50,968 bases of DNA from Cyanobacteria bacterium RM1_2_2 (GTDB lineage: Bacteria; Cyanobacteriota; Cyanobacteriia; Elainellales; Elainellaceae). This document shows, in pieces, positions 23,895 through 44,595 of the stretch. Position 1 is the first letter of the stretch. Each line of letters opens with the position of its first letter. The notes under the pieces are model-generated. The model was not told the DNA's origin and ran no database searches. It saw only the letters and a list, made by a program, of their open reading frames with translations. Made by a program: the position numbers and the translations under genes. The stretch lies in the NCBI GenBank assembly GCA_012033495.1, contig JAAUQT010000012.1, positions 1 to 50,968 on the forward strand, given 5' to 3'.

Positions 23895-23947
23895 GGGGCT
23901 GTGATCCATTCCAGCTAAAACCCTGGTAATGGCAAGGCGACAGCCCC
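23895..23947. ncRNA. Strong long hairpin, possible small RNA or terminator
   Basis: Outer stem GGGGCTGT/ACAGCCCC (8 bp perfect), inner stem CCATT/AATGG and CCAG/CTGG with a one-base bulge, and loop CTAAAACC. T5 begins seven bases after the outer stem on the plus strand. It could terminate the small-protein operon, or be a structured RNA. Strand is not certain and no known RNA family is recognised. Confidence 0.4.
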
Positions 23948-23950
23948 TAA

Positions 23951-27747: not shown

Positions 27748-29127
27748 TCAGTAGTCCACAGGGCGGTTTTGCAGTCGCCTGCTGCCGTGTATTTCGTGCC
27801 AGCGCAAGCCAATTAACACTGCCATAAACAGCATGTAGCCTGGTTCTTCCATTTGGCTAAAGATTAAGCCGTGAATGAAGATATTTAACATCAAAAACTT
27901 GGAGAAGTCATCAAGGCAAAATCGTCTCCAAATAATTGAACTTAAATACAGATAAGTTGCTAACCCAATCCAACCAATATCGCCCCAGATTCCTGCCCAG
28001 CCGTAGAGTGGCGAAAACATACTTGATCGCGGCCCTAATCGCGTACCCCAAACCATATCCCAGGTTTCTTGGCTGGCAGGATGAACCGTTGCCCCTAACG
28101 GTGCTAGTAAGTCTCCATACTTTTGCAACATCCAGCCGCCCAACCGCCCAACGGTGTGACCTGGACCTAACCCAAATAGCGCATTCAATGCAGATTCGTA
28201 ATGAGAAATAATGATGCGAATTGAAGATAGCTTCAAAACTGTGGCCTCTCCTTCCGGGCCATATAACTCCGGCTTTGCCCAGGAATTATAGTTGCGGAAA
28301 AATTCAATGTTTTGAGTAGCCCACCAGAAGGCATAGCCAACTAAAATCATTGCCACAGCATATTGAATCGTTGTTTTAATATTCTTGACGCTGACTAATA
28401 CCAGCAGCAGAAAAGCAGCCAAAGATACAAACATAACTTGCTTGGTTTCAGCAACTTGAATCTGGATAATTGATGCTGCTAAAATCCCGACTCTCAGCCA
28501 CATTGGAGAGGCTTTGGCGCTAATCAAGTAATAGATTCCATAGGCAATTGAAACTGAAGCGCCGACCACATGACCGCTGCCCGACAAATAGAAAACTCCC
28601 TGAATATTATCTTGTGGAAGTCCCAATCTACCGGGTTTCAAAATACCAGCTTCCAGCAAAACAAACTGAGCTAAAGCTAAACCGATATGAAAGCTAGCAA
28701 ATCCGAAAATCCACTTTTTAAATCGCTGCAAATTTTCGGGGGCAATCGGTGTCCAGACCAGCGCCAGCAGCAGCATAAAAGGTTCTGCTAGCAAAAGAAA
28801 GGACAGAATGACATTGATCACACCGGCACTATTCACAATTGCGCTAGCTGTTGCGACACCAATCAAGACAAACAGCCCGGTGAGGAGTATTTTTGAATTA
28901 AGGATGTGTTGGCGATCGTTAACAGGTGGCTGCAAAAGTATCCAGAAAAATGCCAGCGGAACGGTTGCAAAATGCAGGAAGTTAACCACAGATGGAAATC
29001 CAACTGTTTCCAACATGCGCGGAAAAAAGGCAGTCGCAAATGCTATTAGGATTAGCATTGAGTTGCGGATTTGCCCGTCTTGTTTGGGAGATGCTTCTGG
29101 TAGTTTCATATTGTGTTGGAGAGTCAC
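27748..29127 (-). CDS. O-antigen ligase/polymerase-like (Wzy-type) membrane protein
   Basis: 459 residues with about a dozen hydrophobic helices and a large periplasmic-type loop between residues 270 and 370 (from WAKPELYGPEGEATVLKL to the end of the GTRLGPRSS region), the layout of Wzy/WaaL polymerases and ligases. Within the loop FGLGPGHTVGR recalls the GxGPG element seen in O-antigen polymerase families. It likely joins repeat units on a lipid carrier at the outer face of the inner membrane. Last of the polysaccharide genes in transcription order. A Met six codons in (MKLPEAS) is an alternative start. Function is by topology and context, with no catalytic residue identified. Confidence 0.75.
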   Translation of the reverse strand: MTLQHNMKLPEASPKQDGQIRNSMLILIAFATAFFPRMLETVGFPSVVNFLHFATVPLAFFWILLQPPVNDRQHILNSKILLTGLFVLIGVATASAIVNSAGVINVILSFLLLAEPFMLLLALVWTPIAPENLQRFKKWIFGFASFHIGLALAQFVLLEAGILKPGRLGLPQDNIQGVFYLSGSGHVVGASVSIAYGIYYLISAKASPMWLRVGILAASIIQIQVAETKQVMFVSLAAFLLLVLVSVKNIKTTIQYAVAMILVGYAFWWATQNIEFFRNYNSWAKPELYGPEGEATVLKLSSIRIIISHYESALNALFGLGPGHTVGRLGGWMLQKYGDLLAPLGATVHPASQETWDMVWGTRLGPRSSMFSPLYGWAGIWGDIGWIGLATYLYLSSIIWRRFCLDDFSKFLMLNIFIHGLIFSQMEEPGYMLFMAVLIGLRWHEIHGSRRLQNRPVDY

Positions 29128-29205
29128 ATGATAGAGTCACATCATAAAGTCACGCCGAGTCACGCTATAAAAATCACACCAGAGAACAGAGTCATGTCAG
29201 AAAAA

Positions 29206-30369
29206 TCACATCAGAGAACGAACCTTATCGTAGATATCAATTAAATATTCGTAGTTGCGTTGGGCAGTATATTTTGCTTCAAATTCTGCTCTTGCCTCTT
29301 GCCGCATTTGCGTTAATTTATCCGAATGCGTCAGCATCCATTCTACTTGGGCGATCAAATCTGTAGACGAATTGGGATTATAAAGTAAGCCGGTTCGTCC
29401 TGAATCGATCAATTCTGCAATGGCTCCAATGTTGGCTGCAATCACGGGCGTTCCTTTAGCAAATGCCTCCACCGCCACTCGACCAAAGGTTTCATACCAG
29501 CGAGATGGAAACACCAAAAACTTGGCACTCCCCATCAGGTCATACACTTCTGTCATGGGACGGCGACCGAGCCACTCGATGCTAGAACGCCGTGCAGCTT
29601 GCTTCACCTGCTCCGACAAGGGCCCATCGCCAACAATTTTGAGCGGAATCCGGTTTCCTAGCTGTTGCCAAGCTTCCAGCAGCACATCCAAGCCTTTTTC
29701 GACGGAAAGCCTGCCCACAAACAGCGCATAGCCGCCACTGCCGTCGCCCACTCCCGGATCAAACGGCACGAAGTTGGGCTTGATCACGATTTTTTCAGCA
29801 GGCAGCCCTCCCTGAATAAACTTCTGGCGGGCAAACTGAGTCAGCGCGATGAATAAATCCACCTGGTTTGTCCAAGTTTGCATTGCCCGATGGGCCGTAA
29901 TCATCGTCGCAACCGCCGCACTCGCCACGCGGTTTTCTCGATAGCAACCGTGGATCACACCCGGATAAGGAATTGGCTTCCCCAGGCAGTCCTCACACAC
30001 GCGACCGTTGCGAAAAAAAAGCGCGTTGGGGCAAAGCAAGCGGTAGTTTCGCAAGGTTTGAATCACGGGCACGCCTTCTGCCTTCGCCGCATAGTGAACC
30101 GCCGGAGAAATCAGCGGAAAAAAGTTTTGTACATGCACTACATCGTAAGCTGCCTTTTTCAACATTTGCTGCACAACTTGACGAGAGGCTTCCGACCAAA
30201 TGGTTTTGACGGCGAGGTGAGCAGAAGACAGAGCGGCAATCCGATCATTATTTTCTTCGTAGGTTTCAACTTGATGCCCCATCTGGCGCAGCAAATTTTC
30301 TTCTGCGGCACGAGATTCATCTTCTCCGCCTCGAATCTGGTAGCGATTGTGAATGCTGAGAATACGCAT
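29206..30369 (-). CDS. Glycosyltransferase, GT4 family
   Basis: 387 residues from the ATG before RILSIHNRYQIRGGEDESRA; a 20-codon upstream extension is in the same frame but unlikely. GT-B fold: the N-terminal acceptor half has YDVVHVQNFFPLISPAVHYA, and the C-terminal nucleotide-sugar half has YALFVGRLSVEKGLDVLLEA and the E-x7-E element YETFGRVAVEAFAKGTPVIA. A Cys-containing stretch RNGRVCEDCLGKPIPYPGVI is a known insert of some exopolysaccharide GT4 enzymes. Sugar specificity unknown. Confidence 0.88.
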   Translation of the reverse strand: MRILSIHNRYQIRGGEDESRAAEENLLRQMGHQVETYEENNDRIAALSSAHLAVKTIWSEASRQVVQQMLKKAAYDVVHVQNFFPLISPAVHYAAKAEGVPVIQTLRNYRLLCPNALFFRNGRVCEDCLGKPIPYPGVIHGCYRENRVASAAVATMITAHRAMQTWTNQVDLFIALTQFARQKFIQGGLPAEKIVIKPNFVPFDPGVGDGSGGYALFVGRLSVEKGLDVLLEAWQQLGNRIPLKIVGDGPLSEQVKQAARRSSIEWLGRRPMTEVYDLMGSAKFLVFPSRWYETFGRVAVEAFAKGTPVIAANIGAIAELIDSGRTGLLYNPNSSTDLIAQVEWMLTHSDKLTQMRQEARAEFEAKYTAQRNYEYLIDIYDKVRSLM

Positions 30370-30450
30370 TGCAGTCCGGTTGCTCGATAGAAGGTTGGCA
30401 GCAGGCAGCAGGTTGGGCAGTCCTCCCACAGCTTCTTACAGCGGTTGCGG

Positions 30451-31575
30451 TTAGAGATCCAGAAGGTTTTGATAAACTTGGGCAACTTGTTCTGCTGTCT
30501 TTTCCCAAGAGAAGGCTTTCACTCTGGCAAAACCTCGCTCAATCAAGGCTTGACGGTCAGCGGAATCTTTGAGCAGCATACAAACAGCTTGCACAATCGC
30601 CGCAACATCTTCCGGATCAACCAGAATGCCGCCATTTCCGACCACTTCGGGCAAAGAAGTGACGTTTGACGTAATTACGGGTGTTCCGCAAGCCATAGCC
30701 TCTAGAATTGTGATGCCAAACCCTTCCGACAGCGATGGGGAGAGCAGCAGATCTGCCGCATTGTAAATTTGCACCAACGTTGCTTTATCAGGCTTACCCA
30801 AATAACGAATGGATTCAGCAAGCTGATGTTCCCTAATAAACGCCTGTTGCTCAGAATTGAAGGCGGCGCCTGCTTTGAGAAGCTGAACGGGCAGCCCTTG
30901 ATTTTTCAAAGCTGATAATGCTTTTAGAACAGTGAGGATATTTTTGCGCGGATGGTTTGAGCCAACATGCAGCAAACAAAACTGTTGAGGCGAAATTTGA
31001 TAGGACTGTCGGATAGTTTGAATCGCTTCAGCAGATAATATATCAAAATCTGAGTCGAAGCCATTAGGAACGGTGGTGAGATGGGATGACGGCACACCTA
31101 ATAAACGGGTGACATCTTTTGCGGTGTAGTCTGAAACCGTAATCACATGGTCTGCCTGACGTAGCCCTCGGACGGCATATTTCCAGACGGCAGTGCTAAT
31201 GGCGGGCAGTTTTGCCTGATCCTCAATGTTGCCGGGTTGGTAAAAGTTGATCAGATCATGACAGGTTGCCACAACCGGCTTCCCTGTTTTACGCAGCCAG
31301 TAAACCAGATGCCCGTCACTATGATCAATGACATGAAACAGATCGGCATCATGGCGCTTTGCGGTGTTGGGATAGTTCCAATAGCGCTGATAGTATTTAT
31401 TCAGCCCATTAATGTAAGCATTGCTGCTTGTACGCTTCAGGTTTAGCTGCGGTCGCAGTTCGGTGATTTGCCAGTCGGGTCTAACAGCCTTCAAACCTCG
31501 CACCAAACCATCTGCATAGACATCCATGCTGAAGGAAAACCCTGGTTCGCGCCGCAAGATTGTAATCTTCACCAC
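30451..31575 (-). CDS. Glycosyltransferase, GT4 family
   Basis: 374 residues. N-terminal acceptor domain with REPGFSFSMDVYADGLVRGL and a DLFHVIDHSDG segment, linker with VITVSDYTAKDVTRLLGVPS, and C-terminal donor domain with CLLHVGSNHPRKNILTVLKA and the E-x7-E element LSEGFGITILEAMACGTPVI. Adjoins the next GT4 upstream (31580) by four bases, so the two are coupled and likely act in the same glycan pathway. Sugar unknown. Confidence 0.88.
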   Translation of the reverse strand: MVKITILRREPGFSFSMDVYADGLVRGLKAVRPDWQITELRPQLNLKRTSSNAYINGLNKYYQRYWNYPNTAKRHDADLFHVIDHSDGHLVYWLRKTGKPVVATCHDLINFYQPGNIEDQAKLPAISTAVWKYAVRGLRQADHVITVSDYTAKDVTRLLGVPSSHLTTVPNGFDSDFDILSAEAIQTIRQSYQISPQQFCLLHVGSNHPRKNILTVLKALSALKNQGLPVQLLKAGAAFNSEQQAFIREHQLAESIRYLGKPDKATLVQIYNAADLLLSPSLSEGFGITILEAMACGTPVITSNVTSLPEVVGNGGILVDPEDVAAIVQAVCMLLKDSADRQALIERGFARVKAFSWEKTAEQVAQVYQNLLDL

Positions 31576-31579
31576 TTGC

Positions 31580-32797
31580 CTATTTCCTATGGTTGAGCAC
31601 TTCAGTCCAACGCTCTAGCAGTCGTTCCGCAATGCGTTTGTGCGTGTAATGATTTTGGACTCGATCAATTCCATGCTGGCTAACTGCTTCATACCAGTCG
31701 GGTTCCTGAATCATGCGTTCCAAAATATTTGCAAGCGTATTATCATCTTCTTCTGGAAACACCAAATCATCTCGACCAATTACATTCGGAATCTCCCCAG
31801 AAGTTGAGCCAATGACGGGTAATCCCATCGACATGGCTTCAATCAGCACATGACCAAACTGCTCTTTCCAGGTGGGCATGGTTCTAGAAGGCAGAACGAG
31901 CACATCAAATTGGTTCATTTCTAGCGGCACATCGGCATGGGGCACTTTGCCTTTCCAGGTGATCAGGTCTGCGACGCCTTCTTGCTCTGCCACTTGCCGC
32001 AGCATTGCTTCATCCTGCCCCGACCCACACAACACCACTCGAAACTGATGTCCCCGCTTGCGCAGTTGACGGGCTGCCTTAAACAATACATCAATCCCTT
32101 TATCGTTGACCAATCGCCCCATATAACCGATCAAAAATTCATGGGTGCTGCGTTGACGTGCGGTTGCATCAAACAGCGACATATCAACTCCCATTTGCGG
32201 CATTACTTCAATCGTGCCAGTGTAACCCCATTGGCGGAGAAGCTGCTCACCGTCTTGATTACCCGCAATCATCAGTGGCGCTGTATCCAACACGAAGCGA
32301 CGAATCCAGCGACGTAAAAAAGCGAGTTTGCGGTCTTGATTTTCCCAGCCGAATACAACCATCGGAATTTTTAGTAACCGCGATAGGATCGCAACCTGGA
32401 ATGTGGAGAGAGAAAATACTTCTTCTTCAACTTGTAATAGATTAGGCTTGAATTGGTGAATGGCGCGTAGTAAATCCCATGGTGAATAAAGATAGGCTCC
32501 GGTGCGTCCATTGAGAATGACTTTGGCAGGAAAATATTGAATCTGCTGATGAGGTTTTTCTAGATTGAAAATTTGTTTCCATCCTTTCGCTTTCCAGGGG
32601 CTTGGCACGAGTAACCCTACTGTAACCGCCTTGGTTGCGGATTCGGTTGCGGGTTCGGTTGTTGGCTTCGCTTTGGCAATGGCATCTAGCTTGCCCTGAT
32701 TGATGCCGACTACGTAAGTATGGCTGATAAAGAGAACGCGAAGATTGGGTTTGGCTTTCGTAGGAAGGGGCTGCTTGAGTTCTTGTGTGGCAATCAT
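31580..32797 (-). CDS. Glycosyltransferase, GT4 family
   Basis: 405 residues starting MIATQELKQPLPTKAKPN. AAGGAG lies seven to ten bases before this ATG and decides the start over a frame reaching further upstream. Donor half has LIGYMGRLVNDKGIDVLFKA and WKEQFGHVLIEAMSMGLPVI. A low-complexity insert rich in Thr/Ala/Glu (AKPTTEPATESATKAVT) sits after the first strand and looks like a short simple-sequence expansion. Starts 11 bases after the GT2 gene ends, so they are likely cotranscribed. Confidence 0.87.
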   Translation of the reverse strand: MIATQELKQPLPTKAKPNLRVLFISHTYVVGINQGKLDAIAKAKPTTEPATESATKAVTVGLLVPSPWKAKGWKQIFNLEKPHQQIQYFPAKVILNGRTGAYLYSPWDLLRAIHQFKPNLLQVEEEVFSLSTFQVAILSRLLKIPMVVFGWENQDRKLAFLRRWIRRFVLDTAPLMIAGNQDGEQLLRQWGYTGTIEVMPQMGVDMSLFDATARQRSTHEFLIGYMGRLVNDKGIDVLFKAARQLRKRGHQFRVVLCGSGQDEAMLRQVAEQEGVADLITWKGKVPHADVPLEMNQFDVLVLPSRTMPTWKEQFGHVLIEAMSMGLPVIGSTSGEIPNVIGRDDLVFPEEDDNTLANILERMIQEPDWYEAVSQHGIDRVQNHYTHKRIAERLLERWTEVLNHRK

Positions 32798-32808
32798 ATT
32801 AGTTCTCC

Positions 32809-33864
32809 TTAGCTCATGACGGAACGGTTTTTGCGGAATGTCCAGCCAAACAGTTTGGGTCGCAGGTTGGGAATGAAAAACCACGAGATTGCAGGTTTCG
32901 CGAGCGAAAGGGGAAGGAACCCAACCCACAGGAACCAGACACTCAGCGCCAGTTGCTTTTTCAACTTAAAGCCCGAATACTTCCAGAGCGCCCGAATGCC
33001 GAGATAGGTGATGGACATGACGCGATCGCTAGGAACAGGGTGCGCTTGGGGGTCTAACTTTAACGACGCGAGCCGTGACCAGAATCTGCCAACTAGCCGA
33101 GATTCCAAATCATCAGGAACCGCATATCCGAGTTCGTTTGCCTTCTCGATCAGCAGGGAAATTTTTTTCAAATCATGCTGAATGAAGCGGTGGAGTCGGC
33201 TGCTGCTGAGGGTCGAGAGGGCCCACTGGTTGTTGCCATGGATGCGGTATGCGCCCAGCGGTTCCTCAATTGCTAAAACTTCACCATAAAAGGGAATTAA
33301 AACCGACAGATAATCATCCGCCATGGTGGTGCAGTCATCAGGGACAGGAAGCACCTGCGCTAGAGCGTCTCTGCTGATGGCATTCCCGCTGGTTGGGACA
33401 CCCGGATAGGTCGAAACTTCTAGCAGCTTTTGCCACACCTGCCCGGTCGCCAACTGCCGATTTCCTTGCGGATAGGTAAACCCCCGCGATTTTCCTTGTT
33501 CGTCAACAACGCTCAGTCGGTAGTGAACTTTTGCAGTTTCAGGCTGCCAAATTTGCACGATTTGCTCAACCGCATTGGGAAACAGATAGTCATCAGAATC
33601 GAGAAAGATAACAATTTCGCCGTGACTGTGGCTGAAACCATTGTTGAATGCTTTGCCCTGCTTGCCGTTCTCTTGAAGGATCGCAATAATTCGCTCGCCA
33701 TACTGAGCGACGACGTTGCGTGAGTTGTCTGTGGAACCATCATCTACAACAATTACCTCGATGTTTGGGTAAGTTTGTGCCAAGGCGCTATCGATCGCTT
33801 CTGCCAAAAAGCGCTCGTAGTTGTAGTTGTTGACAATGATGCTGACCAGCGGCTGTGCGTTCAT
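32809..33864 (-). CDS. Glycosyltransferase, GT2 family
   Basis: 351 residues from MNAQPLVSIIVNNYNYERFL. GT-A fold with nucleotide-sugar binding VEVIVVDDGSTDNSRNVV-like segment (VIVVDDGSTDNS) and the DxD-type IFLDSDDYLF. A long C-terminal part with two or more hydrophobic segments (LALSVWFLWVGFLPLSL) suggests membrane attachment. An ATG seven codons upstream is a weaker start. Probably adds one sugar of the repeat unit; sugar unknown. Confidence 0.88.
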   Translation of the reverse strand: MNAQPLVSIIVNNYNYERFLAEAIDSALAQTYPNIEVIVVDDGSTDNSRNVVAQYGERIIAILQENGKQGKAFNNGFSHSHGEIVIFLDSDDYLFPNAVEQIVQIWQPETAKVHYRLSVVDEQGKSRGFTYPQGNRQLATGQVWQKLLEVSTYPGVPTSGNAISRDALAQVLPVPDDCTTMADDYLSVLIPFYGEVLAIEEPLGAYRIHGNNQWALSTLSSSRLHRFIQHDLKKISLLIEKANELGYAVPDDLESRLVGRFWSRLASLKLDPQAHPVPSDRVMSITYLGIRALWKYSGFKLKKQLALSVWFLWVGFLPLSLAKPAISWFFIPNLRPKLFGWTFRKNRSVMS

Positions 33865-33946
33865 AAGTTCACCCTTCCAGAGCACTTAAAATAGCAGGTT
33901 TCTTTCCACGTCTTTCTCCCAACTCAAGGCAATATCTCAGGAATCG

Positions 33947-34812
33947 CTAAGCTTTTTGACTAAGTCGCTTCAATTTCTTGACCAATACCCGCTGAATGTT
34001 TTGTGGTTCATCTAGGAAGTATTTGATGCGATTCCAATCTACTATTTGATAGAACTGATAGCCGATAGCGACAATCCAGCGTTGAGGTAAACCAAGCTGT
34101 TTTCGATAATGCTTCATGAGCCGATCAACGCGCATCGAGCTTGTACCATTTTCATATCTTCAAAGGTTTTAGTGCCTTCCAGTTGTAAATGATTACCCCA
34201 AACTTCATTCACATATTGGGTATGAGCAACTTGAACCGCTCGAAACAGAAAGTCAACATCTAAAGTATAGTGCTCCTCAATGCTATAAAGTCCAGCTAAT
34301 TTGTGAAGCGAAGCGTGATAGAAATAGGCTGCCGGATTCATTGGAAATGGGTTTACAGTATGTCCAAGCAATAGATCGGAAAGCTTTAATTTTCTGGGTT
34401 TATTAACAAATCGAATGCGATCTTCGTTGTTCCGGATATTACAATTACCAACGAGTAATGTCGGCTCTGGCAAGCTTTCAAACAGCTTCAGCACACGATC
34501 AAGGACGTTTTGCTCATAGTAATCATCCACATTCAGAAATCCTAAAATGTGACCTTTTGCCATCGCGATTCCTTTATTCATGGCATCCGACTGTCCTTGA
34601 TCTTTCTCTGAGATCCAGCGAATGTGGGAATAGTTTTCTGCATACTGCTTGATGATTTCAACCGTTTTATCAGTTGATCCACCATCTACAATGATGTGCT
34701 CAAGCTGTGAGCAGTTTTGGTCGATCACAACTTTGATGCACTTCTCGATGAAGCGTTCACCGTTATAAACAGGGGTAATAATGCTAAGCGTAGGTTTCTT
34801 TTCTAGTAGCAT
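33947..34812 (-). CDS. Glycosyltransferase, GT2 family, frameshifted near its C-terminus
   Basis: GT-A enzyme starting MLLEKKPTLSIITPVYNGER. Key motifs: IIVDGGSTDKTVEI and the acidic DxD-type VDDYYE in LGFLNVDDYYEQNVL. The first frame reads on to FEDMKMVQARCALIGS and stops at 34114. A second frame opening at 34135 (MRVDRLMKHYRKQLGL) continues with KHYRKQLGLPQRWIV, a typical GT2 end. One missing base in 34114-34140 (CTCGATGCGC) accounts for it. I therefore report one gene, about 288 residues, rather than two. Confidence 0.75.
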
Positions 34813-34933
34813 TCATTTTCCTCGTTATAAACTTCTTTTCCAACAATCAACATTTGACATCTATAACAGCACTGACAGTCAGCACATGGCTAGGGTAAAT
34901 TACACCTTTGATACAATGTAAAAGAGACACAAA

Positions 34934-35974
34934 CTAGGCAGATTTAACTGAAGTTTGAAGATACTTGATGGTTTTATTAAGCCCTTGCTGATGCAGCACT
35001 CTAGAAAAACGGAAAAGATTATACTTCCACTTTTGGTAGCCTCTAGGAGGAGAGAGAAAATATTGGAGTGGCAACACGTTCCATGTGTTAAAGCTGTACG
35101 GTTTATACTTTACAGTAATCTGCTTTAACTCCTCATATTGATATCCCATCCGATCAAGCAGCTCTGCTCCAAGCAACTCCACATAGTCATTCACGACTCG
35201 CCAAATTTGAGGATCTCTGAGATCAGAAATCCAACGATCTAAATTCTGAGCTTGGGGTAGTCCACTGAGATGTAAATCTTGTCGCTGCTCTTGGTAGCCA
35301 AATCCTTTCTTTTCAACATTTCCGTAATGTATCATCTGCTCAGAAAAAGGAATCTCTAAAAATTGGCAGATTTCTTCAACTTGCTTCTCTGGAGAAGTTA
35401 GTAGGTTTTCATAACTCACAACTAAGCAATTTTCGCTAGAAATTAATTGTGCTCCTTCCAAAAGCAATTGCGGAGCCTGAATTAAATCATGCTGGTATTT
35501 CCGAAGATGTGACCAACTTTCTTTGATCCAAGTGTTAATAATTGAGCAGAGTACAGCAACAGGATTGCGAATGAGGATAATAAACTTCGCCTTTGGAAAT
35601 ACTTGATAAAGCTCTGGAATAATATGATAGTATCTAGGCGTTTTATCTAGAAAATAGCGCTTCCCAGAATTCTCTAATAAAGCCTGATAAAGTTGAGCAT
35701 ATGTTTGTCTCAATGCTCGATAATACGTCTCCTTGCCTTCAGGTAAAAGCTGGATAAAGTCGTTAACCGCTAGCCTTGACCAAGCGGCATTGTACTCTGC
35801 ATTGTAACCATGCGCGCGTAAGGCATAAAGGGGATGTAGCATAATCCATGGTTCTGCTGCTGTATGAACTTCAGAATGATTCTCTAAAATTCTTTGCAAT
35901 AATGTTGAGCCTGCTCTAGGTTGGGAAATCAAGAAAATTAGGTTTTCCCCTTGCGAAGTTGAGTTTGTATTCAT
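34934..35974 (-). CDS. Sulfotransferase (ST-5), PAPS-dependent
   Basis: About 346 residues from MNTNSTSQGENLIFL; the ATG used avoids overlap with the next gene, an upstream start at 36061 does not. The 5' PAPS loop is FLISQPRAGSTLLQRILENH and the 3' phosphate-binding strand is KFIILIRNPVAVLCSIINTW. A C-terminal region with DRWISDLRDPQIWRVV is typical of the Sulfotransfer_1/3 class. It probably puts a sulfate ester on a sugar or lipid-linked acceptor. No signal peptide, so it should act in the cytoplasm where PAPS is made. Confidence 0.85.
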   Translation of the reverse strand: MNTNSTSQGENLIFLISQPRAGSTLLQRILENHSEVHTAAEPWIMLHPLYALRAHGYNAEYNAAWSRLAVNDFIQLLPEGKETYYRALRQTYAQLYQALLENSGKRYFLDKTPRYYHIIPELYQVFPKAKFIILIRNPVAVLCSIINTWIKESWSHLRKYQHDLIQAPQLLLEGAQLISSENCLVVSYENLLTSPEKQVEEICQFLEIPFSEQMIHYGNVEKKGFGYQEQRQDLHLSGLPQAQNLDRWISDLRDPQIWRVVNDYVELLGAELLDRMGYQYEELKQITVKYKPYSFNTWNVLPLQYFLSPPRGYQKWKYNLFRFSRVLHQQGLNKTIKYLQTSVKSA

Positions 35975-36032
35975 TTCATATTTTTTGAGTAATGTAGACA
36001 AATGTGCTCTGCCAGTTGCCCTGATAGGATGC

Positions 36033-36668: not shown

Positions 36669-36757
36669 GGTAAGAAGAAATCTGAGAAACTAATGGTATG
36701 TTGCTACGGTCTAGCAGATTGGCTCAAAAACCACAGGGTGAGAGCAATTTCTATCAT

Positions 36758-37657
36758 CTATGGAATTAGCCAACTTGAAAGATCCTTTTGGATTAAATCC
36801 TGCAATTTCAAAACATCTTCTCGATAGATTTTGATCAGAGACTGTCGCGTTTCTGGGGAAAGTGAAGGCTTGTCAGCCATATTTAACTTTCGGATATTTC
36901 CGGCTACCTGCTGTCTCAACTGCTTCGGTAAAAGTGGTTTAATTGCCAACTTAATTGGGTTTCTATTGGACAAAAATAAGTTTAGAAGTTGATTTTTAGG
37001 CATTGCAGAAATGTTTTTGCGCGACAAGTCAGGTACAAATGCAGAATGAACACCCAAGAATTCAAAAATATCCTGACATACTGAGGTGGAATCAGTGTTC
37101 AATTCTTCTTGTAAGTAAACCCTGATTTGGCTAGGATCGAAAGTGTTGAAATACCGCTTTATTTGTGCATAGTAATAGCCACAGCTAGCATAGAGCCAAC
37201 CCGGTTGCCATCTTTGTTCTAATCGCTTCTGTTCATCTGCCAAAGCTTGCTCAAATGACATTAATTCATAGCCATCTCGCTTCTGAAAGCAGTAAGCTGA
37301 AAAGGCTCTCTCGGCTGGATCTCTGAGAATAGCAATGATTTTAGCCTCTGGAATCATCTGTTTGATCCGCGTCGGTGTCTGCTCAAAAAAGAGATAAGAA
37401 GGGGAGGCTTCGCCAATTGCAGTTTCTTGAGAAACATCATTAAATAAACTCGTATACTCTTCGAGAGGCATTGCTGCTTGCCGCTGAGCGCGCCCTCGTA
37501 GGATGCCATTTCGATGAGTTGTGTAAAACTCTGGAGCAAAAAACGTAGGCTCTTTCATCGCACTCATAAAGATTTCTGGGTGCTGGTTTAGATAATAGTG
37601 CAGCGAAGTTGTGCCTGCTTTAATTGCGCCGATGATGAAGAAATTGGGTAAAACCAT
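36758..37657 (-). CDS. Sulfotransferase (ST-3), Sulfotransfer_1 type
   Basis: 299 residues. 5' PAPS loop PNFFIIGAIKAGTTSLHYYL, MKEPTFFAPE, and 3' site AKIIAILRDPAERAFSAYCF, the pattern of heparan-type and Stf0/Sulfotransfer_1 glycan sulfotransferases. Clearly a paralogue of the gene at 41763 with matching blocks over the whole length, including LYASCGYYYAQIKRYFNTFD against HYRKAGYYYAQLKQYFDVFD. The pair presumably sulfates two different positions or sugars. Confidence 0.87.
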   Translation of the reverse strand: MVLPNFFIIGAIKAGTTSLHYYLNQHPEIFMSAMKEPTFFAPEFYTTHRNGILRGRAQRQAAMPLEEYTSLFNDVSQETAIGEASPSYLFFEQTPTRIKQMIPEAKIIAILRDPAERAFSAYCFQKRDGYELMSFEQALADEQKRLEQRWQPGWLYASCGYYYAQIKRYFNTFDPSQIRVYLQEELNTDSTSVCQDIFEFLGVHSAFVPDLSRKNISAMPKNQLLNLFLSNRNPIKLAIKPLLPKQLRQQVAGNIRKLNMADKPSLSPETRQSLIKIYREDVLKLQDLIQKDLSSWLIP

Positions 37658-37726
37658 AGTTGCTAGCGATGAATTTATTCCTTTGCATAGTTGCCTCCCT
37701 GAGTGGTTTGATTAATCTCTTACTGT

Positions 37727-38869
37727 CTACAATTCCTCTAATAGCTGTTTTACCACCTTGCCTGATGTATCCCAGTTCAAGCGCGATTGATATTCATGAA
37801 AGGCTGAAACAGCTAATTTCTTATAGTCTGAATAGTTAGTAAATAAGTTGCTAATGTAGCTACAGTATTGTTCAATTTCTGCATCAGGATTGAACAATTG
37901 ACCGTTGATATTATCTCGAATGGCAGATGGAATCCCGCCTACATTGGTGGCAATGGAAGGCACTCCAAAGGAGCTTGCTTCACTGAAAACAATGCCAAAA
38001 CATTCTGCTTGTGATGGCAAAATCAAAAAATGAGATTCAGCAAGCAGTTTGCTAAGTTTCTCCTGACCTTCTATCGTAGACTTACTTACAAAACCAAGGG
38101 GTTTAAGATAGTTAGGCAAAGGCTCATCTAATATAGGCTGACAGCCAACAATGGTCAGTTCTGTCTCTAATCCCGATAGGTTTAAAGCTTTGGCAACCTT
38201 AAAGGCAATATCACCACCCTTGCGAAACCAATCAACTCCCAGAAAAAGGAGTTTGCACTTATTCTGGGGTCTTGAGTCAACAAGTACCTTAATCTCATCG
38301 ACAGTGAGCTTGTTGTCAAGATTGGCTCCGAACGGCACTACCTTGATTTTAGAAGGATCGACATTATAATTTTCAATTGCAGTTTTAGCAGCCCATTCTG
38401 ATGCATAAATTCCTAAGCTACACTTTTGCAATATCAAATTTTCCATGTAATGACCATCATGAATAGTTGTAGAGCATAGATTATAGTATTGAGGATAAAA
38501 GTTTAATAAACCTGCAAAGCTGGCATCTGCCCAAAAGACAATCGGTTGGCGGCATTCAAGATAAGTCACAGGTCGATGAGTAACGCTGAGAACGATATCT
38601 ACCTGAGTCTGGTTAAGCTTTGTTTGAATTTGGTTAGCATAGCTTTTCAAGCGTAAGGGTTCTGGATCTTTTAGATATTTCTTCCGACCTAATGCATGAT
38701 AATACCGCTTTAGTTTACATACAGCTTTGATAGCTGATTGATCGACTAGCGGCCCGATGTGCTCCATAGGAACCATCTGGTTATGCAGAGATTGTCGAAT
38801 GTAGTAAGGTAATCCTGACCAAGGGCGGACATTTAGCGGATCACAGGCTGTAACATAAGCCAATTTCAT
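37727..38869 (-). CDS. Glycosyltransferase, GT4 family
   Basis: 380 residues starting MKLAYVTACDPLNVRPWSGL; a longer upstream frame lacks support. The donor half has NKCKLLFLGVDWFRKGGDIA and the E-x7-E element QAECFGIVFSEASSFGVPSI followed by NVGGIPSAI. The distinctive N-terminal WSGLPYYIRQSL is found in some exopolysaccharide GT4 enzymes. It lies between two sulfotransferases on the same strand. Confidence 0.86.
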   Translation of the reverse strand: MKLAYVTACDPLNVRPWSGLPYYIRQSLHNQMVPMEHIGPLVDQSAIKAVCKLKRYYHALGRKKYLKDPEPLRLKSYANQIQTKLNQTQVDIVLSVTHRPVTYLECRQPIVFWADASFAGLLNFYPQYYNLCSTTIHDGHYMENLILQKCSLGIYASEWAAKTAIENYNVDPSKIKVVPFGANLDNKLTVDEIKVLVDSRPQNKCKLLFLGVDWFRKGGDIAFKVAKALNLSGLETELTIVGCQPILDEPLPNYLKPLGFVSKSTIEGQEKLSKLLAESHFLILPSQAECFGIVFSEASSFGVPSIATNVGGIPSAIRDNINGQLFNPDAEIEQYCSYISNLFTNYSDYKKLAVSAFHEYQSRLNWDTSGKVVKQLLEEL

Positions 38870-38979
38870 AGTCTTCTCCGGCTTGAAAATTAGATAGGAA
38901 TCGATGCTGTAATGAGCTTTTACTTTCGCCAAACAAAACAATAAACTGTGCTTGTCAAGCTGCGGTTTCTCAAACCTAA

Positions 38980-39866
38980 CTACTCAAATTCATAAGCAAA
39001 GATTTCAATATCTTCTTTGTAACGTTGTCGAACTAAATCAATTAATTCAGGTGTATAGAACTGCTGATACTTTGGCAGACCATGAGGGAGTTTTCTTAAA
39101 TCCTGAGAGGAAAAATCTGCAAAGATTTGACTGCAACTAGAAGTCGAATCATATTTTGTTCTATTAAGTTTGGGCAACTCCAAGGGTAACTCCAGCTTTT
39201 CTTTGATGTAGTTGAGGTCGGAATTTAAAGTTTCCTGCTTGCCAATAAAATCATACTGAATACTGCCCAAAAAGAGGCTTTGAGGCGTGCAGTGCAAATT
39301 CAAATCCTCATCTTTTGTTGGGAGGATATAGTCAACTAGAAATTGTCTAAAGGTTATAGAATCTTTATGAGGTTCGTAATTTTCTGCTCCGTGAAATAAG
39401 CGCGTGAGTCTTTTTGAAAAGTCTGTTGGTTCACCATTGGGCAGCAGAGTAACGAAAAAATTAGCATAGGTTGACACTAACTTCTCCCAAGGATTACGAA
39501 CGATCACAAACTTGAAATAATCACTGTTAAGAAACTGTTTTGCTTCTGAATACGGGTAACTAGCTAAACTATAATTTAGCTCCATGTAAATGCGAATATT
39601 TAATCGCCCACCTTTTAGCAATTCTTCCTTTCGGCTAGAATTACTCAGTGCTAGAAGCGCTGCCATCATGCTGCTTGAAGCAACCTTATAGACTGGACAG
39701 TAATGAATCGATAGTCATGATTGACAATTAATCTCTTTTCTACCCAGTTATCTTTTTGCCAGTCATTCTTCACTTTGACCTTAATTCGCCTTAAAAGCGT
39801 AGAAGGTTCAACTAAAGGTAACAACTTAACCTTGTTGATAGTTTTATCGAGAAGTAAGCTTGACAT
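38980..39866 (-). CDS. Sulfotransferase (ST-2), Sulfotransfer_2 type, frameshifted
   Basis: Read as one gene, about 295 residues. The upstream frame (from MSSLLLDKTINKVK) ends RLIVNHDYRFITVQSIR; the downstream frame holds the rest. One added base near 39703-39709 joins them as DYRFHYCPVYKVASSSMMAA, which is the 5' PAPS loop, so the break falls exactly in the active-site loop. The 3' site is FKFVIVRNPWEKLVSTYANF. The C-terminus resembles ST-4 (RYKEDIEIFAYEFE against DHFREDIESFGYQ). TAGGAG is nine bases before the chosen ATG. As written the gene would be inactive; a missing base in the consensus is the simpler view. Confidence 0.75.
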
Positions 39867-39892
39867 TTGACTCATCTCCTATCTCAAAGCAA

Positions 39893-41723
39893 CTAAATAT
39901 TAGAGCGTGTCGCGCTATCTAAAACAACTTCTCGGTAACTGCCCGATTTAGCAATTCGTCCTTGCTCTAACATATAAACCCGGTCGCAATCTTCAACTGT
40001 TGAAAGACGATGAGCAATAATAATCAACGTCTTTGAGCCTGATAATGATTGAATTGCATCACTGACCAACTGCTCTGTTTCATTGTCTAAGGCTGCTGTC
40101 GCCTCATCTAATACCAACACTTCCCGTTCATGGTAAATGGCACGAGCAATCCCAATGCGCTGACGTTGTCCTCCTGAAAGCTTCACCCCTCGTTCGCCTA
40201 CTTTTGTTTTAATTCCTTCGGGCAACTGCTGAATCAATTCTGAAAGTTGAGCAACTTCAATTGCTTTTTGTAAGCGCTCTGGATTGATGAATTCATCGGG
40301 GACACCAAAAGCAATATTTCGTTCAACGGTGTCATCCGTCAGGAAGATAGATTGGGGAATATAGCCAACCAGGTTCTGCCAGGAGCGTAAATTCTCATAA
40401 ATTGAAATACCATCCACCTGAATATCTCCATGCTGTGGATCTAGAAGTCCTAGCAAAATATCTACTAACGTTGTCTTACCTGCTCCAGATTTGCCAATTA
40501 AAGCAATTGACTCTCCTTTCTGAATGGTTAGAGAAATGCCCTTAATTACATCAGTTGTTGCGTTGGGATAGTGGTATCTCACATTCATCAGTTGAATGCG
40601 TTTAGCAAAATCGAGTGTTGGAGTCGCCTCAGATTTTTGTCCAATAGAAGCTGGACTAATGGAATGAAGGGCGGTTATTTTTAGCAGTGTTAGTTTGAAT
40701 CAAGCCTTCCAATGTTTTGAGGTCGGCATAGATTGCATCCACACTGTAGCTAGAATTCCTGATAGAACTGGCTGCATTGATGAATTGGTTTGCTGATGGA
40801 ATAAGGCGCAGCGAGGCTGTCACAAACACTGCAAGAACAGCGCTCAGATCCTGAGATTCTTGCATGGCAGTAATGGATAAAGTGCAGACAAAACCAACGA
40901 CGACAATAATCAATCCATTTTGAATAATAACTGGAAAGATAATTTTTGAAGTGCGAAATAAAGTGACTGCCTTTTTCCACTTTTCTCCGTGATAGTCAAG
41001 CTGTTTCTCGAAGTACGATTCGCAGCCAATCACGCGAGTCTCCTTAAGCCCACCCATACTATGATTGATCACTTTGATCATTGCTTTATCAGACTCAGTT
41101 CTAATCCGTCCCCACTTCCTGATTCGCTTCCCAAACCCTTCAAAAACCACGATGGTCAGTAATAAGATACTGAGAATCATCACTAGGAGAAGTAAGCTCG
41201 TTTTCGCTAGCAATGATAGGATGAAAAGGATAATAATAGTGTTAACAGAAGCTGTTAGCAGAGGAATAAGATATTCTGTTGTAAAAGTGCTTGTTTCAAT
41301 GATGATATTCTGGGTAATGCTAGCGGAATTTCGCTCGAGGAAAAATGTGTAGGGAGTCCTCAGATATGCACTCATCATCCTGGAAACTAACTTCTTCTTC
41401 TGAGTAAAGCCGATTCTGAAGAGATAGGCATTCGTTAAAACGTATGCAACTGATTTGATTGCAAAGATGAAAACAATAGACAGCCCCAGAATTAGAACTA
41501 ATTGATTATTGGACTGTAGATCGAATTGAATGTAAATCCAGTTGAGAAAAGGAATCTCGCGGATTTGATCAGGGTTGGAAGATAAATTGAGGAATGGGCC
41601 AATTAAGCCGATTCCAAATGATTCTAGGATAGACGTTAGAATCGCCATCAAAAATAGTAGAAAGAGGCTCTGCTTTGTACCTGTGTAAATATACAGAAAC
41701 TTTGCAAGTCGCTTCATCTTCAT
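39893..41723 (-). CDS. ABC exporter, PglK-like lipid-linked oligosaccharide flippase, frameshifted
   Basis: Type IV ABC exporter (half-transporter). The membrane half starts MKMKRLAKFLYIYTGTKQSL with SILESFGIGLIGPFLNL, recalling the PglK flippase of lipid-linked oligosaccharide, and has six helices. The ATPase half has Walker A GKSGAGKTTLVDILL, signature [15 protein letters not shown], Walker B EVLVLDEATAALD and the switch IIIAHRLSTVEDCDRVY. The two halves are out of frame. The break lies in the linker near 40645-40680. The second frame reads SISPASIGQKSEATPTLD and then FAKRIQLMNVRYHYP, so the start Met seen at 40588 is internal to the ATPase domain. The sign here is one extra base or two missing ones. 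Confidence 0.78.
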
Positions 41724-41762
41724 CCAGTTCTTCTCCCTGTCAGACTTTACTCAAAAAACTGC

Positions 41763-42653
41763 CTACTTCAACCACTTCGATAAATCTCTTTGGATTAATT
41801 CCTCTAGTTTTAAGATATCGTCTCGATAAGCTTCAGTAAGCTGTGCTCGAATTTCGCTTGGTAAAGTTGGTTTGTCTTGTAGATTCCAAGCTTTAACTTT
41901 ACGAGCAATTTGCTTGCGTAAATCAGTTGGGAATAAAGGCTTTAACGCTGTTTTGATTGGATTACGTTTGAATAAATTATACAAAAGGCGATTCTTCGGA
42001 ACTCCTGATACATTCATACGAGTTAAATCAGGCTCAAACGTGTCATCCACTTCCAAAAAGCGGCAGATATTCTGAGTGATTGCTGTTGAATTAGAATTCA
42101 GATCTTCATACAGATAAACCCTAATTTGTTCAGGGTCAAAAACATCAAAATACTGCTTGAGTTGAGCGTAATAATAGCCCGCTTTTCGATAGTGCCATAG
42201 ATGTGCCCAATTATTCCGAATTCGCTCTTCTTCTGCTTGTAAACCCTCTACAAAAGAGAGCGGCTCATACCCTTCTCGAATCAGGTGAGTGTAGCAAGAA
42301 AAAGCTCGATCAACTGGATTACGCAAAACAGCAATTAATTTAGCTTGAGGAACATAGTGTTTGATGCGCTCAACTGCTTTTGGACTGTAAAGGTAGAGCG
42401 GCGAAGTTTCACCAATGGCAATTTCATCAGTTACGTTTTGAAAGAGTTTTTGATACGCTTCTAGTCTGGTAATCGAAGTACGGTTAATGTCTTGATCGGG
42501 ATTGCGGAAATTCAATGTCTCCCCTTCAAGTGCAAAGAACCTTGGTTCTTTTACTGAACTCATATAAACCTGAGGATGCTGACTCAAATAGTAATGAAGC
42601 GAAGTAGTTCCCGCTTTTGCTGCCCCAATAATTAGGAAGTTTGGCATTACCAT
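41763..42653 (-). CDS. Sulfotransferase (ST-1), Sulfotransfer_1 type
   Basis: 296 residues. 5' PAPS loop PNFLIIGAAKAGTTSLHYYL, then VKEPRFFALEG, and 3' site AKLIAVLRNPVDRAFSCYTH. A paralogue of ST-3. Ends ELIQRDLSKWLK, close to DLIQKDLSSWL in ST-3. It sits directly after cysC in transcription order, so PAPS made upstream could be used by it and the four other sulfotransferases. Cytoplasmic; acceptor unknown, most likely a carbohydrate. Confidence 0.88.
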   Translation of the reverse strand: MVMPNFLIIGAAKAGTTSLHYYLSQHPQVYMSSVKEPRFFALEGETLNFRNPDQDINRTSITRLEAYQKLFQNVTDEIAIGETSPLYLYSPKAVERIKHYVPQAKLIAVLRNPVDRAFSCYTHLIREGYEPLSFVEGLQAEEERIRNNWAHLWHYRKAGYYYAQLKQYFDVFDPEQIRVYLYEDLNSNSTAITQNICRFLEVDDTFEPDLTRMNVSGVPKNRLLYNLFKRNPIKTALKPLFPTDLRKQIARKVKAWNLQDKPTLPSEIRAQLTEAYRDDILKLEELIQRDLSKWLK

Positions 42654-42772
42654 TTTGTAATCTCCTTGCCACTAAGAATTCCCAGCTAATAACCCTGAAC
42701 ACAGTCTGAAAAGATGCGATGAGAGAGGCTTCTAGTATCTGCATTTCTGCTTCTGCTAGAAGCCTCTTTTAA

Positions 42773-43327
42773 CTAAGCAATCTCTGCCAATGAATTGGTT
42801 GGCAAATAGCCCAGTTCTTGCAAGGTTCTGAATACTTTGTCCACGCTTTCGTCTCGCGTCTCTAGATCCGTTCGACACTCTACCTCAGGGTTTGTTGGTG
42901 GTTCGTAGGGATCAGAAACGCCTGTGAAGTTTTTGATCTCACCAGTTCTTGCCTTTTTGTAGAGTCCTTTCACATCCCGCTCTTCGCAAACATTCAGGGG
43001 CGCGTTCACAAACACTTCCACAAAATTGCCGATTTTCTGTCGCACCTCTTCTCGAATCGCTCGATACGGAGAGATTGCCGAAACAAGGACAATGACACCA
43101 TTGCGGGTCAACAATTGAGAGACAAATCCAATACGTCTAATGTTCTCATCTCTGTCTTCTTTGCTAAAGCCTAGCCCTTTCGTCAGGTTCTCCCGAATAA
43201 TGTCCCCGTCTAAGATCTCAATTTTGCATCCTTGAGAACGGAGCTTCTCTTCAACAGCGCGAGTAATGGTTGTTTTACCTGCTCCGCTTAAACCCGTAAA
43301 CCAGACTGTTACACCACGTTGTTGCAT
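42773..43327 (-). CDS. cysC: Adenylyl-sulfate kinase (APS kinase)
   Basis: Phosphorylates APS to PAPS, the sulfate donor for sulfotransferases and for PAPS reductase. Walker A is GLSGAGKTT at residues 12-20; LDGDIIRENLTKGLGFSKED and SAISPYRAIREEVRQ and the family's VCEERDVKGLYKKARTGEIK follow. 184 residues, a normal CysC. Starts 89 bases downstream of sat's end on the same strand, followed by a sulfotransferase 119 bases later. Its position suggests a dedicated PAPS supply to the sulfated glycan genes, though it could also serve assimilation. Confidence 0.95.
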   Translation of the reverse strand: MQQRGVTVWFTGLSGAGKTTITRAVEEKLRSQGCKIEILDGDIIRENLTKGLGFSKEDRDENIRRIGFVSQLLTRNGVIVLVSAISPYRAIREEVRQKIGNFVEVFVNAPLNVCEERDVKGLYKKARTGEIKNFTGVSDPYEPPTNPEVECRTDLETRDESVDKVFRTLQELGYLPTNSLAEIA

Positions 43328-43416
43328 TGTTCCTCAGTTTTTACACTAATGTTTACACGAAGTTGAACGTTGAAATACCAAAAGGGTTGAATCTGCCAAT
43401 GGTTCTAATCGTCGCT

Positions 43417-44595
43417 CTAAACTCCAATCGGAATTTGCATCGCGCGTGCGAGTTCAGCCGCCACCTCAGGGCGAGAAAACTCCGGCGGCGGCAACTCGCC
43501 TCGCCGCAACATCTCCCGCACCTTCGTCCCCGACAAGTGCACCCGCTCCTCAGGCAAACTCGGACTCGTCTTCGTCGTCGCCATCTGCCCTGTCCGCTTG
43601 CAGTAAAACGCGTGCTCGAACATCAACGGCTCGATCCCTAACTCCCCAGGGGCAAAATCAGCAAAAATGTACTGCGCATCATACGTGCCGTAGTAGTCTC
43701 CCACTCCCGCATGGTCTCGCCCCACAATGAAGTGCGTGCAGCCATAGTTCTTGCGCAACAAGGCATGGAAAATCGCTTCCCTGGGGCCGGCATAGCGCAT
43801 CGCGGCGGGGTTAATCGCCAGAATCACTCGGTCTTGCGGGTAGTAGTGCTCCAGCAAGATCTCGTAGCAGCGCATCCGCACATCAGCCGGAATGTCATCG
43901 CTCTTGGTGGCGCCAACGAGGGGATGCAGAAACAGTCCGTCCACGGTTTCAAGCGCACACTTCTGGATGTATTCGTGAGCCCGGTGGATGGGGTTGCGAG
44001 TTTGGAAGCCCACGATTGTTTTCCAGCCTTTTTCGCGGAACAGGGCACGCGACTCGGCTGGGTCGATTTGGTAGGTGGGGAAAAGCGGGTGAGGGTGGCG
44101 TTGCAGCAGCCAGATGTCGCCGGCGAGGTTGATGTCCCCTTGGCTGTAGACGACCTTGACCCCAGGATGCTTTTCTTCGTTGGTGCGGTAGACGTGGAGG
44201 GCTTCGTGGAGCTTGTCGTAGGGATACTTTTCGCTCAGGTGGAGGACGGCGACAAAGCGACCGGTGGGGTCATCGAGGCGCACGAGTTGGTTGAGGGGGA
44301 GGGGGTCAGCGAGGTCGGCAGGGACGGAGAGGGTGACAGGAACCGCCCAGGGCAGACCGTTGGCGAGGTGCATGTGGTTGACGACGCCATCGTAGTCGGC
44401 TTTGCCGAGGAAGCCGGTGAGGGGACTAAAGCCACCGATGGCGATCAGTTCGAGGTCAGAGCAGGCGCGTTCATCCAGGGTGAGGCGCGGCAGGTGGGGG
44501 GCTTGATCAAGATATTCTGCCTGCTGTTGGGGGCTGCAAACGCGGTTGATCAATGTTCCGCCGTGGGGGGCAATGCTGTCTGGATGATGGCTCAT
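43417..44595 (-). CDS. sat: Sulfate adenylyltransferase (ATP sulfurylase)
   Basis: Makes APS from ATP and sulfate, first step of sulfate activation. 392 residues, homomeric Sat type. The nucleotide-binding [15 protein letters not shown] is near residue 197 and GRDHAGVG near 290; the C-terminal [20 protein letters not shown] is also conserved. The gene is markedly richer in G+C than what follows it: 41 of 60 bases in 44281-44340 against 18 of 60 in 41221-41280 inside the exporter. With cysC it supplies PAPS. It could be either a native, highly expressed gene joined by an AT-rich incoming block, or itself transferred. A large antisense frame in it is only a shadow of the high G+C. Confidence 0.95.

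Follow-up and report, generated by a model that had tools for sequence, protein, structure and literature searches.

The DNA considered here is a stretch of 50,968 nucleotides from Cyanobacteria bacterium RM1_2_2 (GenBank assembly GCA_012033495.1, contig JAAUQT010000012.1), hereafter the window, which is contig C107 of a source genome (label G000) of 5.54 Mb in 335 contigs. At positions 27748-44595, 16 co-oriented open reading frames (ORFs) lie on the minus strand, and we regard them as a genuine locus whose product is very probably a sulfated polysaccharide, either at the cell surface or released. In reading order, the genes encode ATP sulfurylase (sat), adenosine 5′-phosphosulfate (APS) kinase (cysC), the sulfotransferase (ST) ST5, the membrane half and the ATPase half of an ATP-binding cassette (ABC) transporter, ST4, the glycosyltransferase (GT) GT4d, ST3, ST2, ST1, GT2b, GT2a, an HpsO-like GT4, GT4b, GT4a and a Wzy-like protein. 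The 15 intergenic gaps range from -121 to 228 bases, 11 of them between 4 and 121, and a scan for promoters and terminators stayed at chance level (27 found against 27.6 expected, and 14 against 18.2 expected). Gene content and coordinates given in an earlier reading of the letters and ORFs without database searches (the sequence-only reading) hold in the ORF calls and in Pfam: sat and cysC matched ATP-sulfurylase and APS_kinase well over the cut-offs, five STs matched PF13469/PF00685 (ORFs at 34934, 36758 and 41763) or PF03567 (36033 and 38980), four GTs belong to GT4 and two to GT2, and one ORF each matched ABC_tran and ABC_membrane. The features are as follows, GC3 being the GC content at third codon positions.

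27748-29127, minus strand: wzy, Wzy/WaaL-like polymerase candidate, core of the system; no family match
29206-30429, minus strand: GT4a, GT4 family (PF00534, 114.8 bits), usual neighbour of wzy
30451-31575, minus strand: GT4b, GT4 family (PF00534, 115.1 bits)
31580-32929, minus strand: HpsO-like GT4 (PF00534, 112.2 bits; NF038298, 265.3 bits, cut-off 575)
32809-33885, minus strand: GT2a, GT2 family (PF00535, 107.7 bits)
34114-34812, minus strand: GT2b, GT2 family (PF00535, 98.4 bits); GC3 0.40; last cassette gene in reading order
34934-36061, minus strand: ST1, sulfotransferase (PF13469, 121.7 bits; NoeE model, 85.2 bits, cut-off 500)
36033-36668, minus strand: ST2, sulfotransferase (PF03567, 49 bits); G023 orthologue 76% identical
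36758-37657, minus strand: ST3, sulfotransferase (PF13469, 58.8 bits; PF00685, 53.9 bits)
37727-38941, minus strand: GT4d, GT4 family (PF00534, 62.5 bits); G023 orthologue 61%
38980-39669, minus strand: ST4, sulfotransferase (PF03567, 71.5 bits); start in another frame upstream, to about 39875
39893-40588, minus strand: ABC ATPase half (PF00005, 113.7 bits), separated from the membrane half by a frameshift
40656-41723, minus strand: ABC membrane half (PF00664, 41.7 bits), PglK-type flippase candidate
41763-42653, minus strand: ST5, sulfotransferase, XssA-like and NDST-like (PF13469, 73.8 bits)
42773-43327, minus strand: cysC, APS kinase (NF002059, 316.4 bits over the cut-off of 244)
43417-44595, minus strand: sat, ATP sulfurylase (NF003166, 586.5 bits over 387), most likely a collapsed two-copy repeat
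34114-42653, minus strand: low-GC cassette by GC3, comprising GT2b, the five sulfotransferases, GT4d and the ABC exporter

A homologue of the Wzy-like protein was found in 18 of the 36 genomes of the GTDB family that formed our set of relatives (source included; a search at the order level gave the same 36). Among named genomes, 167 of 186 pattern hits encoded a relative of this protein, and the best 80 of the 167 were analysed as named wzy loci; their titles are cyanobacterial in 79 cases, and the remaining record (L204, titled Candidatus Gracilibacteria) bears a cyanobacterial Wzy-like gene in a metagenome-assembled genome (MAG) that is probably mislabelled or mixed. A “GLGPGHT” region is conserved among the relatives, a GT4a-type ORF stands directly before wzy in 37 of 55 loci, and a tblastn search of plasmids with the Wzy-like protein gave no match.

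The nearest block lies in G023, the MAG “Synechococcales cyanobacterium C42_A2020_086”. It holds orthologues of wzy (67% identity), GT4a (71%), GT4b (67%), the HpsO-like GT4 (64%), GT2a (67%), GT4d (61%), GT2b (70%), ST2 (76%), ST5 (71%) and ST4 (54%), and one further ST. ST1 and ST3 lack an orthologue in it. In place of the ABC transporter, the G023 block holds a Wzx (PF13440, 321 bits; NF007773, 297.3 bits over the cut-off of 273), and no ABC gene was seen in the 60 kb examined. G004 (record L233) supplied the best match both to the ABC membrane half (49%) and to ST5 (71%), and an ABC gene and an ST5 relative are neighbours there as well.

Base composition divides the window block into two modules. 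Mean GC3 is 0.38 over the nine ORFs from GT2b to ST5 and 0.50 over the five core ORFs from wzy to GT2a (Mann-Whitney p 0.001), with values of 0.45 for cysC and 0.73 for the adjoining sat; the G023 block genes showed no such third-position dip. The simplest reading is that the sulfation and transport part is a separately acquired cassette beside a widespread core consisting of wzy and four GTs.

The motif R-[DN]-P-x5-S, which we take to be the 3′-phosphate motif of sulfotransferases, was found by pattern in all five STs of the block. The 5′ motif was found by pattern in three of the five and by eye in ST5, and in ST4 it falls immediately before the called ORF, in an extension without a start codon. 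When compared with the Xss proteins of Synechocystis, ST3 and ST5 both matched XssA best, ST5 at 93.6 bits. STs predicted to depend on 3′-phosphoadenosine-5′-phosphosulfate (PAPS) are interspersed among polysaccharide GTs, as expected of a sulfated-exopolysaccharide (EPS) cluster, and together with the orthologous block of G023 and the XssA-like ST3 and ST5 this supports the proposal of the sequence-only reading that the locus makes a sulfated polysaccharide. STs lay within 25 kb upstream of wzy on the same strand in 15 of 55 loci, window included. The wzy locus of Leptolyngbya PCC 7375 has seven STs, and that of Elainella saxicola, which carries an intact PglK-type ABC, showed none over 13 kb of upstream sequence. 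More widely, PF13469 STs were found in 41 of 48 genomes searched; they number 0-1 in Fischerella and some other heterocystous genomes and 20-35 in several, e.g. Hyella, Symploca and Adonisia, presumably names of marine cyanobacteria. This distribution fits a remark on habitat made by Maeda et al. (PMC8205485).

The membrane half of the ABC transporter had PglK as its best NCBIfam match (79.5 bits), and the ATPase half matched MsbA (242 bits), HepA (241 bits) and PglK (232.2 bits). Among 15 other ABC homologues above 300 bits, 14 are single ORFs of 593-686 amino acids, and the remaining one is truncated where the available sequence ends; the intact homologue on contig C116 of the source genome aligned with PglK structures (5c73, 6hrc) over residues 6-586 at 273 bits. 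Intact homologues therefore have the transmembrane and nucleotide-binding domains in a single chain with full-length similarity to PglK, and the window copy is split: the description “PglK-like ABC exporter” stands as to type, not as to a single intact gene. Two other identities were rejected. As a PglK equivalog, the C116 copy reached 343.7 bits to NF050066 (cut-off 1000) and the window halves 79.5 and 232.2; as a Kps or Wzm-Wzt-type transporter, the permease belongs to PF00664, and no ABC2_membrane or Wzt_C was found in the 16 ORFs.

For the transporter of other wzy loci, 44 named loci were extended upstream and scored. The ST, Wzx and ABC class labels came from custom profiles built on sequences of the window, its own genome and relatives, with thresholds of our choosing, and were checked against Pfam and NCBIfam for one Wzt-class member, which has Wzt_C, and one HepA-class member only. 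Among 49 co-oriented upstream runs of at least 5 kb, 15 held an ABC, 9 a Wzx, none both and 25 neither (two-sided Fisher p 0.042). The stricter count was limited to loci with three GTs and no less than 18 kb of upstream sequence, 45 including the window, and gave 12 exporter-type ABC loci (8 PglK-type, 4 HepA-type), 9 Wzx loci and none with both (one-sided Fisher p 0.044), a modest result since the thresholds were set after the scores had been seen and the loci are not independent. One of the nine Wzx loci also has a Wzt-type ATPase, four loci have a Wzt-type ATPase alone, and 20 of the 45 have no transporter of any type looked for.

A quick tree of 55 Wzy proteins, built without bootstraps, places the window as sister to the G023 row (SH-aLRT, the Shimodaira-Hasegawa-like approximate likelihood ratio, 100) in a group of eight rows, namely six with Wzx, one HepA-type and the PglK-type window (SH-aLRT 94). 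The fewest changes between ABC and Wzx on this tree were 5 over 29 rows. Since the window nests among mostly Wzx-bearing rows, replacement of Wzx by the ABC transporter is the cheaper history. The PglK-type ABC is best read as the putative flippase of the locus, given its exchange with Wzx. An exporter of this type had been called unusual for a polymer; from the G023 block, the locus counts and the tree, it appears instead as a recurrent alternative to Wzx at this place. The inner-membrane transporter of a sulfated-EPS cluster would accordingly be this ABC protein, frameshifted as assembled. PglK and Wzk are described as interchangeable, and Wzk, a PglK homologue, substitutes for Wzx in E. coli (PMC2841628). 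Among the matches listed from the open-licence PMC literature, we found nothing on the present locus or on an ABC flippase replacing Wzx in cyanobacteria.

STs occurred within 25 kb upstream in 10 of 20 loci with an exporter-type ABC, 2 of 9 with Wzx, none of 11 with Wzt and 3 of 15 unassigned. The association was significant for ABC against Wzx and Wzt together (Fisher p 0.014), not against Wzx alone (0.23), and after correction for the tree it was not established (5 independent pairs on starred branches, median p 0.5). We speculate, and hold it only tentatively, that the transporter place of the widespread cyanobacterial Wzy core is a swappable slot taken by Wzx, PglK-type ABC, HepA or a Wzt-type transporter; a horizontally acquired low-GC cassette might then have carried in several STs and an ATP-driven flippase; Wzx would have given way to the latter because ABC flippases cope better with a heavily sulfated lipid-linked unit, and PAPS supply might have moved alongside later.

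For the block as a whole, we think it probable that a sulfated cell-surface or released polysaccharide is made by a Wzy-dependent route, with PglK-type ABC flipping in place of Wzx. A priming transferase from elsewhere and the six GTs would build an oligosaccharide repeat on a cytoplasmic lipid carrier, and up to five PAPS-dependent STs would sulfate the lipid-linked unit. The PglK-type ABC would flip the sulfated unit across the inner membrane, the Wzy-like protein would join units outside, and Wzc and Wza of contig C96 (or C116) would export the chain. PAPS would be supplied by CysC and one of two sat copies, and the by-product 3′-phosphoadenosine-5′-phosphate (PAP) would be cleared by a HAL2-type PAP phosphatase encoded on C96. 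Gene families, synteny, the difference in flippase between close relatives and the break in composition are read from the sequence; the substrate, the order of steps, the lipid carrier, the polymer itself and the identity of the polymerase we infer.

Genes for priming and outer-membrane export had been predicted to lie elsewhere in the genome, and they do. C96 carries Wza-Wzc-WecG genes beside the PAP phosphatase, after which no sat match occurs before the contig end; a G011 copy of this phosphatase scored 330.7 bits to TIGR01330 (cut-off 267). In G023, Wza-Wzc-WecG-like genes are linked to a PAP phosphatase and the start of a sat. Five priming-transferase matches (PF02397) and three Wzx-family matches over cut-off were also found elsewhere in the source genome. 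On C116 (L032-L034), positions 5425-43886 hold Wzc, Wza, cysC, at least two clear STs, an intact PglK-type ABC and a Wzy_C protein, a probable second sulfated-polysaccharide locus. The possibility that the genome has no export genes is ruled out by C96 and C116.

Several observations weigh against the proposed route. The Wzy-like protein had no Pfam or NCBIfam match at E 0.001, its profile matched nothing in PDB up to E 1, and it showed no similarity to the Wzy_C protein of C116 (probability 0.4%). Its putative polymerase role is drawn from context: the “Wzy/WaaL-like membrane protein” is a candidate that is conserved in relatives and stands where a polymerase would be expected. The ABC gene is split near 40.65 kb into two ORFs that differ in frame, ST4 is frameshifted near 39.7 kb against its G023 orthologue, and GT2b stops short near 34.15 kb: the final 57-66 residues of its relatives match a different frame in the interval that follows it. 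No orthologue of ST1 or ST3 lies in the G023 block, and ST1 resembles sulfotransferases of small molecules and proteins. The loci without any of the transporter types looked for and the modest exclusivity test count here too.

The same machinery might make a sulfated O-antigen, with the Wzy-like protein as a WaaL-type ligase and the PglK-type ABC as an O-unit flippase. The absence of any family, PDB or profile match is compatible with either a ligase or a polymerase, no outer-membrane polysaccharide export (OPX) or polysaccharide co-polymerase (PCP) gene lies within the block, and Wzk, the characterised PglK homologue, serves lipopolysaccharide in Helicobacter pylori (PMC2841628). Six GTs and five STs, however, suggest a long repeat; the Wza-Wzc-WecG-like genes of G023 are tied to sulfation genes, and on C116 the source genome carries Wza and Wzc a second time, in a locus with cysC and STs. 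We consider an O-antigen unlikely.

The supply of PAPS is complicated by the assembly at sat. Positions 43429-43555 of sat are identical to the last 127 bases of contig C208, which then runs into a caspase-like gene, so that a second sat lies at the end of C208; cysC occurs three times in the genome. Of 32 relatives that gave a match to sat, 10 were examined for its neighbourhood, G021 only for a divergent second copy. The order mnmA-sat-caspase occurs in G013 and G020, and the order PAP phosphatase-sat-cysC in G011 (Elainella saxicola E1) and G012 (Elainella sp. Prado103); in G004 and G032 mnmA precedes sat and a different gene follows, and G029 has neither neighbour. Four contig ends of G010 fall inside sat (mnmA-sat, another upstream, sat-cysC and sat-caspase), as do two of G023, one after mnmA and one after the PAP phosphatase. 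Given the exact 127-base overlap and the separate mnmA-sat-caspase and sat-cysC loci in relatives, the source genome most likely has two sat genes that collapsed, C107 joining the upstream side of one to the downstream side of the other. The adjacency of the sat 3′ end, cysC and ST5 stands, since cysC and ST5 are unique sequence.

Alternatively, sat may truly head the block as mnmA-sat-cysC, with C208 as a rearranged or strain variant. The contig does read through sat, and searches for contig ends that would join sat to a different upstream side gave none, one of them having scored 40 out of 301 initial candidates. The caspase-like gene of C208, however, follows sat as it does after mnmA-sat in G013 and G020 and at a G010 contig end; cysC follows sat in the other setting in G011, G012 and another G010 contig end; and an exact overlap of 127 bases is an assembler signature. 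This arrangement is improbable in our view, and collapse of two sat copies is preferred. PAPS-making genes do stand in the ST cluster, cysC firmly, in unique DNA, and sat through an exact repeat, and among 55 wzy loci a same-strand sat or cysC in the 20 kb upstream is confined to the window (three of the 55 having less than 18 kb of sequence). The claim that the block is self-sufficient for PAPS is weakened by the join of sat to its upstream genes, a probable chimera, and by the second sat and the three cysC genes; cysC and the adjoining 3′ end of sat are secure in place.

Two copies of sat each were seen in three genomes (window 43417-44595; G010 on C86, C89, C9 and C64, L112-L115; G023 on C35, L116 and L117). 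The paired copies are alike enough to collapse or break the assembly and have different flanks; in G010, identity extends into the stop codon and ends there. This looks like gene conversion or repeated duplication of sat. A divergent second sat occurs in G020 (C627, L118; 57% identity) and G021 (C238, L120). Near it lie cysC, a PF13469 sulfotransferase-like protein, a permease and, by eye, a CysH-like gene; a further unit for PAPS supply may sit next to a sulfotransferase here. On the window contig, a sulfate ABC importer lies at 8321-12717, about 15 kb from the block, with CysA (TIGR00968), Sbp (TIGR00971), CysT (TIGR02139) and CysW (TIGR02140) all over cut-off; no importer was seen beside the block in the mapped stretches of G023 and G012. 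Dispersed short repeats occur at 50705-50968, 23894-24009 and 17065-17314, and the first, at the contig end, has dozens of matches in its own genome at 75-99%.

A decaying block, in which the frameshifts of ABC, ST4 and GT2b mean that no normal polymer is made, was also weighed. A frameshift audit (matches of at least 40% identity) found 8 sites in 57.1 kb of homologue-covered source sequence against 1 in 130.5 kb of six relatives, these counts being lower bounds, controls included, since the audit missed the GT2b site. The window accounts for three of the eight (ST4, ABC and mnmA), and for four of the eight the support comes from one query protein; the GT2b site, found by a more lenient comparison, comes in addition and makes a third block gene hit. 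Housekeeping genes, however, were hit as well: mnmA (44786-45781) is probably frameshifted near 44850 as judged against relatives with one query protein, and, by eye, a ribose-5-phosphate isomerase-like gene on C139 is affected too, likewise with one query protein. For this reason consensus errors are likelier than decay, and no frameshift was found in the other ORFs of the block. Decay of the block is rather doubtful.

That the STs modify a lipid, glycolipid, peptide or natural product and share only the neighbourhood is very unlikely: the nearest structures to ST1 are polyketide synthase sulfotransferases (4gox, 4gbm CurM) and tyrosylprotein sulfotransferases and ST2 had no match in PDB, whereas ST2, ST4 and ST5 have orthologues within the same GT block of G023, ST3 and ST5 match XssA, ST5 matched 3rnl (254 bits) and next the heparan sulfotransferases NDST1 and HS3ST, and STs recur upstream of wzy as counted above.

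Among the closest known systems is the xss cluster of Synechocystis PCC 6803 (pSYSM). The Wzx/Wzy cluster that makes synechan has two STs, and an xssA mutant lost the polymer; other cyanobacterial STs are reported mostly in more or less partial EPS clusters of the Wzx/Wzy or ABC type (PMC8205485). Like xss, the block brings together several GTs, XssA/XssE-related STs and, on the proposed reading, Wzy-type assembly, with OPX elsewhere. It differs in having an ABC flippase instead of Wzx, no PCP or priming enzyme, five STs rather than two, and PAPS genes in the block. A copy of xss was rejected: only GTs and STs of the block matched Xss proteins, with identities of 23-38%, and neither Wzy nor ABC has a counterpart there, which bears out the earlier suggestion of a gene set different from xss.

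The sulfated capsule clusters of Vibrio sp. KMM 8419 and Cobetia marina KMM 1449 contain PAPS-making genes, and contradict an older view of such polymers as confined to cyanobacteria (PMC11641403, PMC11766843). They share with the block the grouping of STs with PAPS-making genes, Cobetia also having cysQ and a sulfate permease, and differ in their cysND(C) genes and Kps-type export of the finished chain, where the block has sat/cysC and a Wzy-type core (PMC11641403, PMC11766843). The combination of a cysND ATP sulfurylase with a Kps transporter was not found in the block. A 2026 report describes an Actinoplanes EPS cluster with two predicted STs (PMC13390465).

With PglK and Wzk, the ABC shares full-length similarity (in the C116 copy) and a position where relatives have Wzx, never both in the counted loci; it differs in its setting, a cyanobacterial locus with STs, in the frameshift that splits the window copy and in the C116 score far under the PglK cut-off. 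HepA, of the heterocyst envelope polysaccharide, is likewise an exporter-type ABC in a cyanobacterial polysaccharide locus, and in the wzy locus of G029 a HepA equivalog (951.5 bits over the cut-off of 725) stands where the flippase is expected; the C116 copy of the window-type ABC reached 285.9 bits to the HepA model, under that cut-off. One block GT4 is nearest to HpsO of the hps system, and a true HpsO was rejected at 265.3 bits (NF038298), no block GT reaching any Hps cut-off.

Sulfated clusters in cyanobacteria, and PAPS genes within such clusters in proteobacteria, are already published; what is new in the locus is its cassette structure and, backed by the comparisons with other loci, the replacement of the flippase. 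As a warning, the apparent sat-cysC-ST operon crosses a collapsed repeat, so that the PAPS operon is half secured by the assembly. Recent work on heterologous synechan production singles out sulfate uptake and the supply of PAPS as in need of strengthening (PMC13125312). A locus grouping STs with cysC/sat, together with an export-linked PAP phosphatase, offers a ready parts list. Wzx and KpsM/Wzm were among the targets of a phylum-wide survey of EPS genes in cyanobacteria, which reported several of these bacteria without an obvious candidate for one of the two, and PF00664, the exporter-type membrane domain, is not among the entries in the part of its domain table consulted (PMC4594306). Part of that gap could be accounted for by ABC genes of the PglK and HepA types that occupy the flippase position beside the common Wzy core.

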